Assembly (NCBI RefSeq): GCF_014211915.1
Contig: NZ_CP060040.1
Location: 2,728,001 to 2,792,000, forward strand
Reading direction: 5' to 3'
DNA from: Burkholderia cenocepacia
GTDB lineage: Bacteria > Pseudomonadota > Gammaproteobacteria > Burkholderiales > Burkholderiaceae
DNA: 64,000 nucleotides
The notes under the pieces are model-generated. The model was not told the DNA's origin and did not search any database. It was given only the letters and a program-made list of their open reading frames with translations. The position numbers were made by a program, and so were the translations under genes. Shown here one piece after another: positions 55,779 to 64,000 of the stretch (position 1 is the stretch's first letter; each line of letters starts with the position of its first letter).

Positions 55779-57575
55779 TCAGCGATTGATCCGCGAATCC
55801 CCGTCCCCGCCATGCGCGACCGCGACGGGCGCCGGCACCCGCGGAATCTCGACCTCGACCGTCGTGCCCTCGCCGAGCGTCGTCGCGATCCGCAGCGTGC
55901 CGCCGACCAGATACGCACGCTCGCGCAACCCCACCAGCCCGAATGAACTCGACTTGCGCGGCACCGCGGGATCGAAGCCCGCGCCGTCGTCGCGTATCGT
56001 CAGCGCGATCGCTTCGCCGCCGCACACGAGTTCGACGTTCGCATGCGACGCGGCCGCGTGCCGGGCGACATTCGCGAGCGCTTCCTGCGCGATGCGGAAC
56101 ACGGCCGTCGCATACGGCTCGTCGAGTTGCAGCTCGGGCGGCTCGACGTGCAGCGCACACGCAATCCCGTGACGGTGCCGAAAATCCTCCACGAGCCATT
56201 GCATCGCCGCCGCGAAGCCGAGATCGTCGAGCATCAGCGGGCGCAGGTCCGACGCGATGCGGCGGGTCGCGGCCACCGCGCCGCGCGCGAGCGCATGCAT
56301 CGCCGCGATCTTGCGTGCCAGCGATGCGTCGTCCTGCGGCACGTGGTCGATCAGCCATTCGAGATCGTTCTTCAGCGTCGCGAGTGTCTGCGCCAATTCG
56401 TCGTGCAGTTCGCGCGCGATGCGGCGCTGCTCGGCTTCGCGCGCGCTGGCGCTGATCGCGGCGATCTCGCGCAGCTCCTCGCGCGAGGCCTGTAGCGCCC
56501 GCTCCGCACGTACGCGCTCCTCGACTTCGCGCCGCAGGTCGCGGTTCGACGCGCTCAGTTGCGCGGTGCGCGCGGCGACGCGCTGTTCGAGCCGTTCGTT
56601 CGCATCGTTCAACTGCGCGCTTTTCTGCACGACGAGCAGATGCTGGTAGCGCGCGCCGGCCAGCGCGCGCACCGTCTGCGCATGCAGCCGGCCGTTCTCG
56701 AACAGCATCGCGAACAGCACGACGCCCGACGCGACGAGACCGTACGCTCGCCCCGCATAGAAGCCGAGATCGAAGCGCCCGTGATTGAGCATCGATGACA
56801 GCGCGATGTCGAACAGCCACGCGACGAGCACCGTCATCACCCACAGGTCGAGCACGGAATGGCGGCGCCGCTGCCGCCACATCAGCATCAGCGCGACGAG
56901 GTTCAAGCCCCAGACGACCGTGATCGCGTTCGTCATCGTCGAGGTCATCCGGTTGCCGCTCATGATGTGCGGCAGCAGGGCGTGGCCGGCGGTCGCGAGC
57001 AGCGCGAGCGCGGCCGTCGCGCCGCCGGCGGCCACGAGGCAGAGGACGACCGGAATCGCCGCACGCCGCTGCGGGGCCGGAGCCGGGCGCCCGCGCGACG
57101 TCGCGCGCAGCAGTGCGTACGCGGCGACCGACAGCGGAAAGCCGCCATGCCAGAACAGGTACAGCCATGCGGTGGTCTGTTCGCCGGCGCCGAGCAGGCC
57201 GGTCGGCGTGAACAGCCCGGGGAAGGTCAGCATGTGCGTGCCGGCCATGAACGCCGTGAACAGGTAGCCGCCCGCCAGCACGAGCAGCGATTTCTCGCGC
57301 AGGATCGCGTACTGGCCGAGCAGCAGGCCGGCCGTCACCATGTCGTTGACGACAATCGCCGACTGGTACACGGGAATGAACGCCCAGCCCGGCGCGAGCG
57401 GCATGGCCGCGAACGGCGCGAGCGCGGCGAAGATCACGGCCGATACGAGTACCGTCGCGAGCGCGAGCCGCCGCTCGCGCCGGCCCGGCGGCAGCGACGA
57501 CATGAACAGACGCGACGTGTCCGGATCGTCGTCGTCCGGCGGTGACGTGGGCGGGAAGCGGAAGGCGGCCGTCAT
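55779..57575 (-). CDS. Membrane sensor histidine kinase (NarL-partner type)
   Basis: 598 residues. About 7-8 predicted membrane segments in the first 300 residues, MASE4-like (LALATVLVSAVIFAALAPFA, GGYLFTAFMAGTHMLTFPGLF). A coiled coil (LNDANERLEQRVAARTAQLSASNRDLRREVEERVRAERALQ) follows. HisKA_3 with phospho-His in EQRRIARELHDELAQTLATLKNDLEW, and ATPase motifs (NVARHAAASHANVEL, DDGAGFDP, FGLVGLRERA). Overlaps the response-regulator stop (ATGA). The membrane sensor suggests a lipophilic, membrane or energy-state signal. Confidence 0.9.
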   Translation of the reverse strand: MTAAFRFPPTSPPDDDDPDTSRLFMSSLPPGRRERRLALATVLVSAVIFAALAPFAAMPLAPGWAFIPVYQSAIVVNDMVTAGLLLGQYAILREKSLLVLAGGYLFTAFMAGTHMLTFPGLFTPTGLLGAGEQTTAWLYLFWHGGFPLSVAAYALLRATSRGRPAPAPQRRAAIPVVLCLVAAGGATAALALLATAGHALLPHIMSGNRMTSTMTNAITVVWGLNLVALMLMWRQRRRHSVLDLWVMTVLVAWLFDIALSSMLNHGRFDLGFYAGRAYGLVASGVVLFAMLFENGRLHAQTVRALAGARYQHLLVVQKSAQLNDANERLEQRVAARTAQLSASNRDLRREVEERVRAERALQASREELREIAAISASAREAEQRRIARELHDELAQTLATLKNDLEWLIDHVPQDDASLARKIAAMHALARGAVAATRRIASDLRPLMLDDLGFAAAMQWLVEDFRHRHGIACALHVEPPELQLDEPYATAVFRIAQEALANVARHAAASHANVELVCGGEAIALTIRDDGAGFDPAVPRKSSSFGLVGLRERAYLVGGTLRIATTLGEGTTVEVEIPRVPAPVAVAHGGDGDSRINR

Positions 57576-58219
57576 GCGTCGTCGTCCCCGAGGTCGAGAT
57601 CGTGGCGCACCGTGTAGCGGACCAGTGCGGCTTCGTGCGGCAGCCCCATTTTCTCGAGGATGCGCGTCTTGTACGTGCTGACCGTCTTCGTGCTCAGCGC
57701 GAGTTCGGACGCGATCCGCGTGACGGTCTGACCCGCGACGATGCGGCGCATCACGTCGAACTCGCGCGCCGACAGCCGTTCGTGCGGCAGCGCCTGAGCC
57801 GGCGCGCGCAGCGTGTGGGCGAGGCTTTCCGCCGCGGACGAGCTCACGTAGACCCCGCCTGCCGCCACCTTGCCGACGGCTTCGACGAGTTCGGCCGTCG
57901 CACTGTCCTTCGTCAGGTAGCCGGTGGCGCCGGCCTTGAACGCGCGTGCCGCGTACTGCGCTTCCGCGTGCATCGTCAGCACCAGCGTGCGCAGCGACGG
58001 CGCCTGGCGCTTGACCAGCCGGATCAGCTCGATGCCGGTCGGCGCGGGCATCGACAGGTCGAGCAGCAGCACGTCGGCGGCCGCGCGCTTGGCCAGCGCG
58101 AGCGTGCCCGAGCCGTCGCTCGCCTCGCCGACGATCTCGAAACCGCCGGCCCGCTCCAGGATGTGACGCAGTCCGTCCCGCATGACTGCGTGATCGTCAG
58201 CCAGAATTACCCTGATCAT
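57572..58219 (-). CDS. NarL/LuxR-type response regulator
   Basis: 215 residues. Receiver with ADDH acidic pair, phospho-acceptor D54 in VLLLDLSMPAPTG, and K in GYLTKDS. LuxR-type HTH near the C-terminus (LSAREFDVMRRIVAGQTVTRIASELALSTKTVSTYKTRILEKMGL). Upstream gene of a two-gene operon with the kinase at 55779-57575. Targets are unknown; no adjacent operon is an obvious candidate. Confidence 0.95.
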   Translation of the reverse strand: MIRVILADDHAVMRDGLRHILERAGGFEIVGEASDGSGTLALAKRAAADVLLLDLSMPAPTGIELIRLVKRQAPSLRTLVLTMHAEAQYAARAFKAGATGYLTKDSATAELVEAVGKVAAGGVYVSSSAAESLAHTLRAPAQALPHERLSAREFDVMRRIVAGQTVTRIASELALSTKTVSTYKTRILEKMGLPHEAALVRYTVRHDLDLGDDDA

Positions 58220-59118: not shown

Positions 59119-61137
59119 ATGAGCGACACGATCCATGCATGGATCGGCGCGATCGGCGCGCATCCGCTGCTCGTGCTGGCGATCGTGTTCGTGGCCGCCT
59201 GCGCCGAGGCGATCGCGCTGGTCGGCACGATCGTGCCGGCCGGCGCCGTGATGTTCGCGGCCGGCGCGCTGATCGGCGCGGGCGCGCTCGACGCATGGGC
59301 GACGATCGGCGTCGCGGCCGTCGGCGCGGTGATCGGTGACGGGATCAGTTACGAACTCGGCCGGCATTACCGCGGGATGATCCGCAACGCGTGGGCGCGC
59401 TTCGGTTATGCGACCGCCTACGCGCGCGGCGAGGAATTCGTGCTGCGTCACGGCATGAAGAGCATCGTGCTCGCGCGCTTTCTCGCGCCGGTGCGGGCGG
59501 TCGTGCCGGTCGTCGTCGGCTGCGCGACGCTGCCGCGCCGGTCGTTCTATCCGGTCAACGTGATCTCCGCACTCGTGTGGGCGCCCGTGCACGTCGCGCC
59601 CGGCATCCTGTTCGGCGCGTCGGCCGCGCTGGCCGCGGCGATCAGCGTGCGGGTCGCCGCGATCCTGCTGGTCGTGGCCGGGCTGGTCGCGCTCGTATGG
59701 ATCGGCGTGCGCGTCGCGCTGCGGCGTGGCTGGCCGTTGCTGCGCCGCGCGCTCGTCGAAACCGTGCATGCATGCGCGCGCCGCTGGCCGCGATTCGGCG
59801 CGCGGCTGCACGACGGGATCGCGTACCTGCGCGGGCTGCCCGGCGCGGTGCCCGTGCTCGCGCTGCTTTTCATCGGCTGCGTGTGGCTGTTCGCGGGGAT
59901 CGTGCAGGACGTCGTCGCGAACGATCCGCTGATGCACGCGGACATTGCGCTATATGCGTTTCTGCAGAACCTGCGCACGCCACCCGGCGACGCCGTGATG
60001 AGCGCGCTCGCCGTGCTGCATGGGCACGACACAGGGCTGATCGTCGCGGCCGCGTTTCTCGTGTGGCTGATGATCCATCGCTGCTGGCTCACGGCTGCCT
60101 GGTGGCTCGCGACGATCGGTGTCGCCGTTGCGCTCGTGCCGGTGTTCGGCGCGAGCGTGCCCGGCGCGACGCCCGCGAGCCTGCCGCCCGGCGCGCTGCA
60201 CGTGGCGCTGCCCGACGCCGACGCCGCGTTCGCGATCCTCGCGAGCAGCGGCCTCGGCTGGGCGCTCACGCGCGACCGGCCCGCGCTGTGGCGCATACCG
60301 GTCGTGACGGCGGTCGTGCTGTGGATCGTGCTCGGCGGCTTCGCGCGACTGTACGTCGGCGATACCTGGTTGTCGGGTCTGCTGGGCGGATGGAGTCTCG
60401 GGCTCGCATGGTTCGCGTTGCTCGCCGGCGCCTATGCGTACTGGCGTGTGCGCGAGCACGTGCAGCCCAGAGGCGCGCTCGTCGCGGTCGTCGTCGTTCT
60501 GGCGACGGCCGGCGTATGGACGGTTCCCGCGCAATGGCAGCTCGATCGCGCGGCGCGTCCGCATGTCGGCGACGTGGTCGCGATGACCGTCGACCAGTGG
60601 CTGCGCGGCGGGTGGCAGCGCGTGCCGACGCGGCGCACCGAGATCGGCGGCGATCGCGAGGAATATCTGCCGCTGCAATGGAGCGCGACGTCGGACACGC
60701 TCGATCGCCATCTCGCGCAGGCCGGCTGGCAGCGCGCGACGCCGTGGACGCCGGCCACCGCGCTGCGCTGGCTGTTGCCGCAGGCGCCGGCCGACACGCT
60801 GCCCGTGCTGCCGCGCTATACGCATGGCGAAAGCACGCGGCGCGTGTTCGTCCGCGTCGATTCGGCGCACCCGGAAAGCCGCTTCGTGCTGCGGTTGTGG
60901 CGCTATCCGTACGTGTTGCAGGATGCGCTCGGCATGCGGCCGCTGTGGTACGGCGCGCTGTATCGCGAGACGCTGCGCCGGCCGGCGCGGCTGATGACGT
61001 TCGTGCGCTCGACGACGATCGACGATGCGGCGGCGATCGCGCACGGGCTGGCGGTGGAGCCGACGATCGCGCATCGGCCGGCGGGGATGGCGGCCGCGCC
61101 GGACGCGATGCTGCTCGTGTGGATGGTCCAGCCGTGA
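59119..61137 (+). CDS. DedA-PAP2-LssY fusion protein
   Basis: 672 residues. Residues 1-200: DedA domain (ACAEAIALVGTIVPAGAVMFAAGALI and FARFLAP-type LARFLAPVRAVVPVVVGCA). Residues about 250-450: PAP2-like six-helix region. Residues about 470-672: soluble LssY C-terminal-like domain (RRTEIGGDREEYLPLQW, RVFVRVDSAHPESRFVLRLW). The PAP2 active-site motifs look lost: LHVALPDADAAFAI stands where PSGH should be, and GFARLYVGDTWLSGLLGG lacks the catalytic Ser-Arg and His of SRxxLGxHW. Inner-membrane protein, possibly of lipid or polyprenyl-phosphate transport. Confidence 0.8.
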   Translation: MSDTIHAWIGAIGAHPLLVLAIVFVAACAEAIALVGTIVPAGAVMFAAGALIGAGALDAWATIGVAAVGAVIGDGISYELGRHYRGMIRNAWARFGYATAYARGEEFVLRHGMKSIVLARFLAPVRAVVPVVVGCATLPRRSFYPVNVISALVWAPVHVAPGILFGASAALAAAISVRVAAILLVVAGLVALVWIGVRVALRRGWPLLRRALVETVHACARRWPRFGARLHDGIAYLRGLPGAVPVLALLFIGCVWLFAGIVQDVVANDPLMHADIALYAFLQNLRTPPGDAVMSALAVLHGHDTGLIVAAAFLVWLMIHRCWLTAAWWLATIGVAVALVPVFGASVPGATPASLPPGALHVALPDADAAFAILASSGLGWALTRDRPALWRIPVVTAVVLWIVLGGFARLYVGDTWLSGLLGGWSLGLAWFALLAGAYAYWRVREHVQPRGALVAVVVVLATAGVWTVPAQWQLDRAARPHVGDVVAMTVDQWLRGGWQRVPTRRTEIGGDREEYLPLQWSATSDTLDRHLAQAGWQRATPWTPATALRWLLPQAPADTLPVLPRYTHGESTRRVFVRVDSAHPESRFVLRLWRYPYVLQDALGMRPLWYGALYRETLRRPARLMTFVRSTTIDDAAAIAHGLAVEPTIAHRPAGMAAAPDAMLLVWMVQP

Positions 61138-61161: not shown

Positions 61162-61491
61162 TTACGCGTGCGACGGCTGCGCGGGAACGACGGACAGGCG
61201 CAGGCCGACCGTCTTGAGCACCGCGAGCAGGGTTTTCAGCGTCGGGTTGCCGTTCGGGGACAGCGTGCGATACAGCGATTCGCGGCTGATGCCGGCTTCG
61301 GCCGCGACGGCGCCGAGCCCGCCATACGCTTCCGCGACCGTGCGCAGCGCGAGCAGGCCGGCCGCACGGTTGTCGGGATCGTCGAGCGATTCCATCGCGA
61401 CGCGCAAATAGGCGACCGCGAGCTCGCGATCGGCGCCGAGTTCGGCGACTTCCGCATCGTGGTGCGATACCGCGCCTTTGAGCTTGTTCAT
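61162..61491 (-). CDS. Antitoxin, HigA-like addiction-module antidote
   Basis: 109 residues from the ATG at 61491. HTH of the lambda-repressor-like type (AVAAEAGISRESLYRTLSPNGNPTLKTLLAVLKTVGLRLSVV) near the C-terminus. Downstream of, and overlapping by 4 bases, the toxin gene; toxin-first order is usual for this family (putative addiction-module antidote group). Confidence 0.85.
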   Translation of the reverse strand: MNKLKGAVSHHDAEVAELGADRELAVAYLRVAMESLDDPDNRAAGLLALRTVAEAYGGLGAVAAEAGISRESLYRTLSPNGNPTLKTLLAVLKTVGLRLSVVPAQPSHA

Positions 61492-61820
61492 GTTTGCCTC
61501 CGTTTCCAGTTCGACCAGTGTTCCCTGGCGCGCCTGATGTCGTCGGGTTGACTCGCCTTGTCGCCGCCGGACAGCAGCAGCACCAACGCGCTGCCGTGCC
61601 GGCCGAAGTACACGCGGTAGCCGGCGCCGACGTGGACGCGCGGTTCGATCACACCTTCGCCAACCGGCTCGCAATCGCCGAAGTTGCCGGTCTGCACGCG
61701 GCGCAGGCGCTCGCGAATCCGCGCCTGCGCGGGCTTGTCACGGACGGCCTTCAGCCATTCGGTGAAAGGCTCGCGACCGTCGTCGCGCTGATAGCGAAGG
61801 AGTTCGAACTTGGCGAGCAT
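61488..61820 (-). CDS. Toxin of the RelE/HigB-like (Gp49) family
   Basis: 110 residues. MLAKFELLRYQRDDGREPFTEWLKAVRDKPAQARIRERLRRVQTGNFGDCEPVGEGVIEPRVHVGAGYRVYFGRHGSALVLLLSGGDKASQPDDIRRARE matches the putative addiction-module killer family. Start codon at 61820 lies at the edge of a palindromic operator and lacks a ribosome site, so translation may be leaderless. It precedes its antitoxin and overlaps it by 4 bases. Confidence 0.8.
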   Translation of the reverse strand: MLAKFELLRYQRDDGREPFTEWLKAVRDKPAQARIRERLRRVQTGNFGDCEPVGEGVIEPRVHVGAGYRVYFGRHGSALVLLLSGGDKASQPDDIRRAREHWSNWKRRQT

Positions 61821-61839: not shown

Positions 61840-62211
61840 AAAAGGTAGTGGGAACGAAGCGGTTGGCATCGCAATGGTTTAGAGGCCGACACGCATACGG
61901 CGTCTTCATGGTCGGGATATCAGGGCGTGGTGCGGGCTTCCCGGACGACGATCATTCTTTCATCCGGGATGGCGCATGACGATTCGGCCAAATGGCCGGC
62001 TGTCGATGGCGTGAGGAGAGGAGACGCACCCCGAGACGTGGAGCGTGAGGGAATGAATGATGGGCGGAAAATCCGCCGGCAGACTGTGTGAATTACTGCT
62101 TCGCCGGCGCGGCCGTCGCGATCTTGGGTGGTTGTCGGCCCGGCGTCGCTTCGTTGCAAGCGGACACGACGATCGGACACGTGTCGATCGTCGTGCGTCC
62201 TCGTTTCATCG
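61840..62211. other. 372-base gap, no gene supported
   Basis: A GTG-initiated plus-strand frame at 62088 begins with a hydrophobic stretch and ILGGC, lipoprotein-like, but it continues for 300 residues antisense to the hydrolase gene with arginine-rich shadow composition; not accepted. No promoter or terminator for the neighbouring genes could be placed with confidence. Confidence 0.4.
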
Positions 62212-64000
62212 TCATGCCGTCGTGGCGACACGTTCCGACGCAAACCCCGCCAACGTCCGCAACGCGTCCCGCGCCGAGCGCAAGTAAAACGCCTGCAGAT
62301 GGAACACATGCCAGCGCGCCGCATGGATCTCCAGCCGGCACGGCACGCCGCACGCGTGCGCATGCTCGGCCAGCCGCTGCGCATCGGACAGCAGTACTTC
62401 CTGGTCGCCGGCCTGGATCAGCATCGGCGGCAGGCCATGCAGACCGGTGTCGAGCGGCCCGCGCGCCGCGGCGGAGCCCGTGCCGTGACACCAGCGCAGC
62501 CCCTGTTCGAGCCAGCCGCGCCGGATCATCGGATCGTCGTGGCGACGCGAGGCCAATGTTGCGCCGCCGAGCGCGGGGTCGGTCACGGGCGAGATCAGCA
62601 GCAGTGCGGCGGCGGCCGGCTCGCCGCGCTCGCGCAGCGCGATGGCGAGCGCCAGCGCCAGCGCGCCGCCGGCCGAGTCGCCGGCAATCACGATCCGGTG
62701 CGGCGCGTAACCCTGCGTGCGCATCGCGTCGTAGGCGGCCAGTGCGTCGTCGAGCGCGGCCGGGCTCGGATGCTCGGGCGCGAGCCGGTAATCGGGCACC
62801 CACACCGGCAGGCCCGCGTCGTTCGCGAGGCGCGTCGTCACGCCGCGATGCGTATGCGGTCCGCCGAGACAAAACGCGCCGCCATGCAGATAGAGGATCG
62901 CGCCACCCGTATCGCCGCGTTTCGGCGCGACCACTTCGATCGGCACATGTTGCGCCGACGTGCGGTAGCGCAGTGTGCCACCCGCACCGGGCATCAGCGG
63001 CGACAGCAGCGCGACGACGCGGCGCTGCATGCGCGCGCCGAACGGCGGCCCGATCAGCGGCCGGAACGCGACGCGCAGGAAACCGCGCAACGAAGCGGCC
63101 GTGAAGGCTTCGAATCTGCCGGCGGGCGGCGCGACCACCGTGCCGTGCAGCGGCGCAGCCGCCCCGGACAGCGGCTGCGACAAGCGGTACGCGGACATGC
63201 CGGTGAAGCGCGTGATCCACCGGTAGGTCAGCGTGAAGCCCGGCCAGTTCGTGCTGTTGTGCCCCGATGCATCGACGTACCAGCTCTTGCAACTGCTCCA
63301 CACCGACCCTGCGAGCCGCTGCTGCACGTGCACGTTGAAACGCCGGTAGCGGCGCGCGTCGACGTCGATCTCACGCGCGCCGTCGCGACGCATCGCCTGT
63401 ATGCAGCGCATCACGTGCGCGATCTGGCTCTCGAGCATGTAGACGATCGAGTTGTGACCGAGGTTGGTGTTCGGGCCGTACAGCATGAAGAAGTTCGGAA
63501 AGCCGGGCACGGTGAGCCCGAGATACGCCTGCGCGCCGCGTCGCCACGCATCGTTCAGGTCGAGGCCGCCGCGGCCCGTGATGCGCATCGGCGACAGGAA
63601 TTCCGTTGCCGCGAACCCCGTGCCGTAGACGATCGCGTCGACGGGATGATGCACGCCGTCGACGGTCTCGATCCCGTCCTCGGTCACGCGCCGGATCGGC
63701 TGCGTGACGAGTTCCACATGGTCGCGGCTCATCGCGGCGAGATAGTCGCTCGACAACAGGATGCGCTTGCAGCCGACCGGATAATCGGGCGTGAGCCGTG
63801 CGCGCAACGCGGGGTCCGGCACGTCGCGCGCGAGCAGCTTGCGAAACGGCCGGCCGGCCGCGACCTTCATCAACCCGTGCAGCCGCGTGAACGCGATCGC
63901 ACGCGCTTCGTAGCGCAGGTAGATCGATGCGCGATGCAGTTTCATCGCCGCCGGCAGCTGGCGAAACAGCGCCTTTTCCCACGGGCGATACGCGCGGTCG
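62212..64000 (-). CDS. Baeyer-Villiger-type monooxygenase fused to HSL-type esterase (partial)
   Basis: The frame is open to the end of the window, so the N-terminus is missing; 595 residues are visible. The first ~250 are BVMO-like: DYPVGCKRILLSSDYLAAM, VDAIVYGTGFAATEFLSP, GFPNFFMLYGPNTNLGHNSIVYMLESQ. The rest is an alpha/beta hydrolase of the HSL family: HGGAFCLGG oxyanion motif (about 62861-62886), nucleophile GDSAGG (62665-62682), VWVPDYRLAPEHPSPAALDDALAAY, then Asp in QAGDQEVLLSD and His in HVFHLQAF. One chain could oxidise a ketone to an ester and hydrolyse it. The FAD-binding GxGxxG would lie upstream. Confidence 0.85.
   Translation of the reverse strand, partial: DRAYRPWEKALFRQLPAAMKLHRASIYLRYEARAIAFTRLHGLMKVAAGRPFRKLLARDVPDPALRARLTPDYPVGCKRILLSSDYLAAMSRDHVELVTQPIRRVTEDGIETVDGVHHPVDAIVYGTGFAATEFLSPMRITGRGGLDLNDAWRRGAQAYLGLTVPGFPNFFMLYGPNTNLGHNSIVYMLESQIAHVMRCIQAMRRDGAREIDVDARRYRRFNVHVQQRLAGSVWSSCKSWYVDASGHNSTNWPGFTLTYRWITRFTGMSAYRLSQPLSGAAAPLHGTVVAPPAGRFEAFTAASLRGFLRVAFRPLIGPPFGARMQRRVVALLSPLMPGAGGTLRYRTSAQHVPIEVVAPKRGDTGGAILYLHGGAFCLGGPHTHRGVTTRLANDAGLPVWVPDYRLAPEHPSPAALDDALAAYDAMRTQGYAPHRIVIAGDSAGGALALALAIALRERGEPAAAALLLISPVTDPALGGATLASRRHDDPMIRRGWLEQGLRWCHGTGSAAARGPLDTGLHGLPPMLIQAGDQEVLLSDAQRLAEHAHACGVPCRLEIHAARWHVFHLQAFYLRSARDALRTLAGFASERVATTA

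Follow-up and report, generated by a model that had tools for sequence, protein, structure and literature searches.

The pairing of a Baeyer-Villiger monooxygenase (BVMO) with an HSL-type hydrolase is encountered, in unfused form, in mymA-lipR of M. tuberculosis and with the MlhB lactone hydrolase, and a literature look-up on mymA turned up no esterase. In the sad cluster, secondary alcohols are described as being converted to primary alcohols via a BVMO and two esterases (PMC10045523; also PMC12753306). There, BVMO and esterase are encoded together with a dehydrogenase-type gene and follow the same reaction order as proposed below for a Burkholderia cenocepacia locus, but, as far as the two can be likened by description, the sad enzymes are separate proteins instead of a single fused one (PMC10045523, PMC12753306). 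Moreover, Thalassolituus growing on a C28 alkane is reported to raise a BVMO and an esterase, the genes of which are not neighbours (PMC6304351).

AlmA of A. baylyi ADP1 is reported to act on C10-C16 2-ketones (PMC11784139). AlmA homologues had earlier been classed as terminal alkane hydroxylases (PMC12449030, PMC6850023), whereas AlmA is now regarded as acting on ketones (PMC12449030). It is actively disputed whether AlmA-type flavoproteins use alkanes or ketones only (PMC12449030), and an AlmA homologue of Alcanivorax dieselolei has been reported as an alkane monooxygenase (PMC12449030), which would not fit a ketone-oxidising explanation. An AraC-type activator has been reported for almA (PMC12449030, PMC11784139), which in A. 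venetianus is described as not adjoining almA (PMC11784139), and AlmA itself is described as a single-domain protein (PMC12449030, PMC11784139).

Enzyme engineering aims at BVMO fusions, for example of an alcohol dehydrogenase with cyclohexanone monooxygenase (PMC5624969). The parts and the pathway logic of the gene described here are already known, and its fused form is apparently undescribed: a natural BVMO-esterase fusion was not found in the literature as judged by titles and abstract openings in a collection with few subscription journals. Here, we describe such a fusion at one edge of the window (the whole 64,000-nucleotide stretch of B. cenocepacia DNA that was analysed), with its conservation, distribution, gene neighbourhood and probable origin.

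Results

A single frame encodes a BVMO and an esterase

The ORF reading of the window revealed a single minus-strand frame that starts from 62212 in window coordinates and reaches the edge of the window without a stop codon; it represents residues 222-816 of a protein of 816 residues (847 if an earlier ATG is used). The full gene, with the remaining N-terminus, lies at L009:316-2763 (minus strand) of this genome, bases 1-2101 of L009 being identical to window 61900-64000 (2,101 bases). This N-terminal part contains GAGFAG (FAD motif) at 22, GGVWRDNRYPG (second BVMO motif) at 52, FRGRAFHSAHW at 163, which represents the FxGxxxHxxxW fingerprint of BVMOs, and GTGASA (NADPH motif) at 188. The claim of the earlier note that one open frame joins both halves therefore holds for the full-length gene, in which neither a stop codon or frameshift between the halves nor loss of the FAD site was found. 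The FAD-binding N-terminus, which that note had to leave unverified, is present with both nucleotide-binding motifs and the fingerprint intact, and the GTGF, YGPNTNLGHNS, HGGAF and GDSAGG motifs occur where they had been placed (Table 1). In other families, the joined frame is retained even where identity is 57% or lower, and the joining of BVMO and esterase in one gene is confirmed as real and far above chance.

Table 1. Window coordinates of the domains, motifs and catalytic residues of the fused gene
Feature	Position	Strand	Remarks
BVMO domain, C-terminal part (residues 222-490)	63193..63999	-	residues 1-221 outside the window, at L009:2101-2763, minus strand
Lys299-Arg300	63763..63768	-	aligns with Lys328-Arg329 of cyclohexanone monooxygenase 5m0z; 139/139 fused sequences
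GTGF (residues 347-350)	63613..63624	-	117/117 long homologues
YGPNTNLGHNS (residues 395-405)	63448..63480	-	YGPNTNLGH in 116/117 long homologues
Linker (residues 491-516)	63115..63192	-	sequence and length vary; limits set by the analyst
HSL-type alpha/beta hydrolase (esterase) domain (residues 517-816 and stop codon)	62212..63114	-	
HGGAF, oxyanion-hole motif (residues 593-597)	62872..62886	-	HGG in 139/139
GDSAGG (residues 661-666) with catalytic Ser663	62665..62682	-	S663 in 139/139
Glu755, probable catalytic acid	62398..62400	-	139/139; aligns with Glu240 of Est8 6y9k
His785, catalytic histidine	62308..62310	-	139/139; aligns with His270 of Est8 6y9k

The BVMO half

The full protein has a Pfam FMO-like match over residues 20-236 and falls below the cut-off of every one of the curated NCBIfam models. 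The two GxGxxG/A motifs (GAGFAG and GTGASA) are kept in 137-139 of 139 fused sequences, and the fingerprint is present in all 117 long homologues. Residue D66, which aligns with Asp59 of 5m0z, is kept in 137/139 and R300, aligning with Arg329 of 5m0z, in 139/139 fused sequences; the active-site Asp and Arg of a type I BVMO are D66 and R337 in phenylacetone monooxygenase. The BVMO half matches solved BVMOs by sequence, and a Foldseek search with a predicted model matched it to cyclohexanone and phenylacetone monooxygenases, the model being of moderate quality (pLDDT 75.8) and superposing on BVMOs with an rmsd of 5.5-6.6. The fused protein thus shares with the cyclohexanone, phenylacetone and steroid BVMOs (5m0z, 1w4x and 4ap3) the fold, both Rossmann motifs, the fingerprint, Asp66 and the Lys-Arg pair, but it is only 25-34% identical to them in structural alignments, and their solved chains of approximately 540 residues lack the hydrolase domain that it carries.

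The esterase half and its probable catalytic acid

Residues 518-813 match solved esterases over their whole length, and the alpha/beta hydrolase fold is complete. The earlier note had described this half as a hydrolase with HGGAF, GDSAGG, an Asp and a His, of which both motifs and the histidine (His785) stand, whereas the acid of the triad is probably Glu755 and not an Asp, as judged from alignment and conservation: D753 is kept in just 107/139 fused sequences, and D760, kept in 138/139, lies five residues beyond E755. A glutamate acts as the triad acid in the PMGL3 esterase, with EstE5 cited as a further case (PMC7824956). The HSL-type esterases EstD11, Est8 (6y9k), E40, EstE5 and PMGL3 share the whole fold, including the N-terminal helices, and a Ser-Glu-His set with the fused protein; unlike the esterase half, to which they are 32-36% identical, they stand alone.

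Both halves are under purifying selection

Relative to six relatives, dN/dS amounted to 0.14-0.17 for the BVMO half, 0.10-0.27 for the esterase half and 0.28-0.92 for the linker, the mean identity of which to the window was 0.45 versus 0.69-0.79 in the flanking regions. Both halves are under purifying selection and the linker is relaxed, and the catalytic residues of both halves are kept in 137-139 of the 139 fused sequences. In one fused homologue (L124:1417-4095), the linker has gained a repetitive stretch with many Pro-Val and Thr-His residues. We also considered whether the esterase is made separately from an internal start, for the 19 of 21 fused loci in which a script found the junction motif; this is unsupported, since only 3 of these 19 loci contain a start codon in frame together with a Shine-Dalgarno-like stretch, and at differing places.

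Distribution of the fused gene

The fused gene was detected in 39 of 65 genomes of the genus, as a single full-length frame in 37 of these; of the other two carriers, G419 has one open frame with a longer linker and G425 is cut by a contig end. A draw from the family, with up to four candidates scored per genome, yielded 23 carriers among 249 genomes (16 of the own genus, and 6 and 1 of two others), and a draw from the class, with up to two candidates scored per genome, yielded 2 among 369. The gene is therefore common in the genus, but in the class as a whole it is rare. In the protein collection, 117 among the best 120 of 4,724 homologues exceed 760 residues, and among these best 120 the closest named proteins are those of Burkholderia cepacia and kin (92%), and Cupriavidus and Variovorax have proteins that agree in length and domains. 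Named carriers include Paraburkholderia, Ralstonia, Rhodoferax, Paracidovorax, Curvibacter, Ideonella, Massilia and Limnobacter, as well as Hydrocarboniphaga, Sphingomonas zeae and Pseudomonas protegens. The database names of the fused proteins are, for example, 'flavin-containing monooxygenase' or 'alpha/beta hydrolase fold domain-containing protein'. No relative was confirmed in a single scan of viral contigs with a single-sequence query.

A second candidate fusion, based on open-frame matches of 823-829 in several genomes of the genus, was rejected, as the two matches that were read, L121 and L122, each proved to contain two adjacent unfused frames with a stop codon between them. More distant BVMO genes adjoined by an unfused HSL hydrolase gene occur at L121:2027-4495, L122:2284-4752 and L123:1409-3886, and the pairing of BVMO and HSL hydrolase thus recurs outside the fused branch. 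The same genome also encodes a second BVMO without an esterase domain (L120:4909-6333; G000:C2:1218396-1219883), which is 51% identical and is followed by an SDR gene.

Gene neighbourhood of fused, split and lone BVMO genes

Immediately upstream of the fused gene lies a gene for a GMC oxidoreductase of 572 residues, which overlaps the BVMO start by 14 bases; its product passes a choline-dehydrogenase subfamily model (607.5 versus a cut-off of 605) and stays below the BetA cut-off (499.8 versus 732.1). Beyond it, a divergent gene encodes an AraC-type regulator, and no promoter-like site was detected when the interval separating the GMC and AraC genes was scanned for sigma-70 promoters.

At least 588 relatives were detected in named genomes, of which the best 80 were examined together with the own locus. 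By their frames, these 81 loci comprise 21 fused genes, 28 with a separate esterase gene at most 3 kb downstream, 30 with none and 2 at a contig end. One of the 28 (L065) is an interrupted fused frame, so that 27 were counted as split. This locus (L065:6848-9465, Sphingomonas aquatilis) has its frame broken near the start of the esterase part, and as a single record the break may be a sequencing error. In 20 of the 28 loci, a candidate esterase ATG is located 16 bases upstream of the final base of the BVMO stop codon, another start codon lying nearer to the stop in some of them; L065, L068 and L069 instead show an ATGA overlap, and in L103 an SDR gene separates the BVMO and esterase genes. Relatives from Pseudomonas and Alcanivorax have the two genes unfused but side by side, mostly with overlapping ends. 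Since 30 of the 81 relatives have no downstream esterase gene, the BVMO can do without this partner.

With distance and score limits set by the analyst, an AraC gene on the opposite strand was found near 19/21 fused, 21/27 split and 10/30 lone loci, which is comparable to the activator reported for almA (PMC12449030, PMC11784139). Compared with the sad cluster, the own locus has a GMC gene followed by the fused gene, and a GMC dehydrogenase gene lies near 13/21 fused loci versus 1/27 split and 0/30 lone loci. An SDR gene lies near 3/21 fused, 21/27 split and 11/30 lone loci. Two unrelated dehydrogenase types therefore seem to fill one place, GMC mostly at fused and SDR mostly at split loci; one or the other is present at 16/21 fused and 21/27 split loci, and neither at 5/21 fused loci within the chosen limits.

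Origin of the fusion

Unrooted trees of a quick kind, the deep branches of which are weak, were constructed for both halves. In the BVMO tree, 29 rows form a supported set, which contains all 21 fused genes, the interrupted one, 2 split genes, 4 lone genes and 1 at a contig end, and in the esterase tree a fully supported set of 24 is made up of the fused rows, the interrupted row and those 2 split rows. A single fusion with some later fissions and losses fits these groupings. The fused label requires 7 changes on the BVMO tree (at least 3 of which are forced by starred branches) and 3 on the esterase tree (at least 1), and with these counts, the weak inner branches and the lack of a root, there may have been more than one fusion. 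A second fusion is indicated by a further fused homologue, P0329 (796 residues; contigs no longer than 6,836 bases), which groups with split Pseudomonas genes in a supported set; as this is one predicted protein, it may contain an error. It is plausible that the split state is older than the fused state.

Discussion

The fused gene quite probably encodes one bifunctional enzyme of a cassette for the degradation of secondary alcohols or ketones. The protein would most likely turn a ketone into an ester and then hydrolyse that ester; this logic of consecutive steps, as well as the identity of both domains, had been put forward in the earlier note and finds support in the sequence and the model, in conservation and selection, and in the neighbouring genes. 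In the proposed route, the GMC-type alcohol dehydrogenase encoded just upstream would make the ketone, and the N-terminal type I BVMO would use FAD, NADPH and O2 to insert oxygen beside the carbonyl. The C-terminal HSL-type esterase (Ser663-Glu755-His785) would then hydrolyse the resulting ester with water to an alcohol and a carboxylic acid, a methyl ketone thus giving acetate and a primary alcohol, and the divergent AraC-type regulator is probably the activator of the cassette. We infer both activities, the cofactors, the substrate, the regulation and any benefit of the fusion. As judged from the neighbours and published relatives, the natural substrate seems likelier to be a linear 2-ketone or secondary alcohol than a cyclic ketone. 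Identity of approximately 50% to Acinetobacter proteins, together with the neighbours, suggests a link to the AlmA/sad pathway. AlmA of Acinetobacter and Alcanivorax probably belongs to the same BVMO branch, differing from the two-domain fused protein in its single domain; the Acinetobacter loci, with 49-50% identity, are not identified as AlmA, and none of the 120 listed relatives of one Acinetobacter BVMO carries that name.

The two halves may well have been joined for joint expression and fixed 1:1 amounts only, as independent enzymes on a string between which the ester diffuses freely; this likely arrangement, which is a sub-case of the bifunctional enzyme and not its opposite, is favoured by the poorly conserved, relaxed linker, which can gain a repetitive stretch, and by relatives that manage with separate proteins. 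More tentatively, and with doubt as to the whole, the protein could be a naturally evolved cascade enzyme that takes a ketone to alcohol and acid in one polypeptide, handing the ester over inside the protein, which would be the channelling that the earlier note expected. It would have arisen when two neighbouring, overlapping genes of a secondary-alcohol or alkane pathway fused in the ancestor of mostly Burkholderiales lineages, perhaps again in the Pseudomonas-type lineage of P0329, and the fusion would then be genomic evidence that AlmA/SadD-type proteins are ketone oxidisers and not alkane hydroxylases.

The reports of AlmA-type proteins as terminal alkane monooxygenases (PMC12449030, PMC6850023) would rather make the flavoprotein half an alkane or other hydroxylase, or an S- or N-oxidising enzyme, with an esterase half acting on unrelated esters. 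We consider this unlikely in view of the BVMO fingerprint in 117/117 long homologues, the aligned active-site residues Asp66 and Arg300, and the reassignment of ADP1 AlmA as a BVMO (PMC12449030); a further point against it is that an esterase, whether separate or fused, would be a meaningless partner unless an ester is formed. It is very improbable that either half has lost its catalytic activity and acts as a scaffold or sensor: no supporting evidence was found, the catalytic residues of both halves are kept in 137-139/139 fused sequences, and dN/dS is low in both. There is practically no chance that the joined frame is a degenerate gene or an artefact of sequencing or assembly, for which the own genome offers nothing and the broken Sphingomonas aquatilis frame is the one parallel. 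This reading is rejected because the same single frame occurs in independent genomes (37/65 in the genus and 23/249 in the family) under purifying selection. An ester-hydrolysing partner, encoded by an overlapping neighbour gene and then fused as a domain, would be expected if the flavoprotein makes esters, which bears on the AlmA dispute. Moreover, the gene provides a natural BVMO-hydrolase fusion that has been kept by selection and is ready to clone.

Downstream of the fused gene, a pair of small genes on the minus strand (61165-61820), the second product of which matches PF21716 (addiction-module antidote) and the first of which has no Pfam match, looks like a toxin-antitoxin pair. It is followed by a plus-strand gene (59119-61137) for a 672-residue protein in which a VTT domain is joined to an LssY C-terminal domain, and by a minus-strand gene (55779-58219) for a sensor kinase with a MASE4 membrane domain, beside a LuxR-type response regulator.
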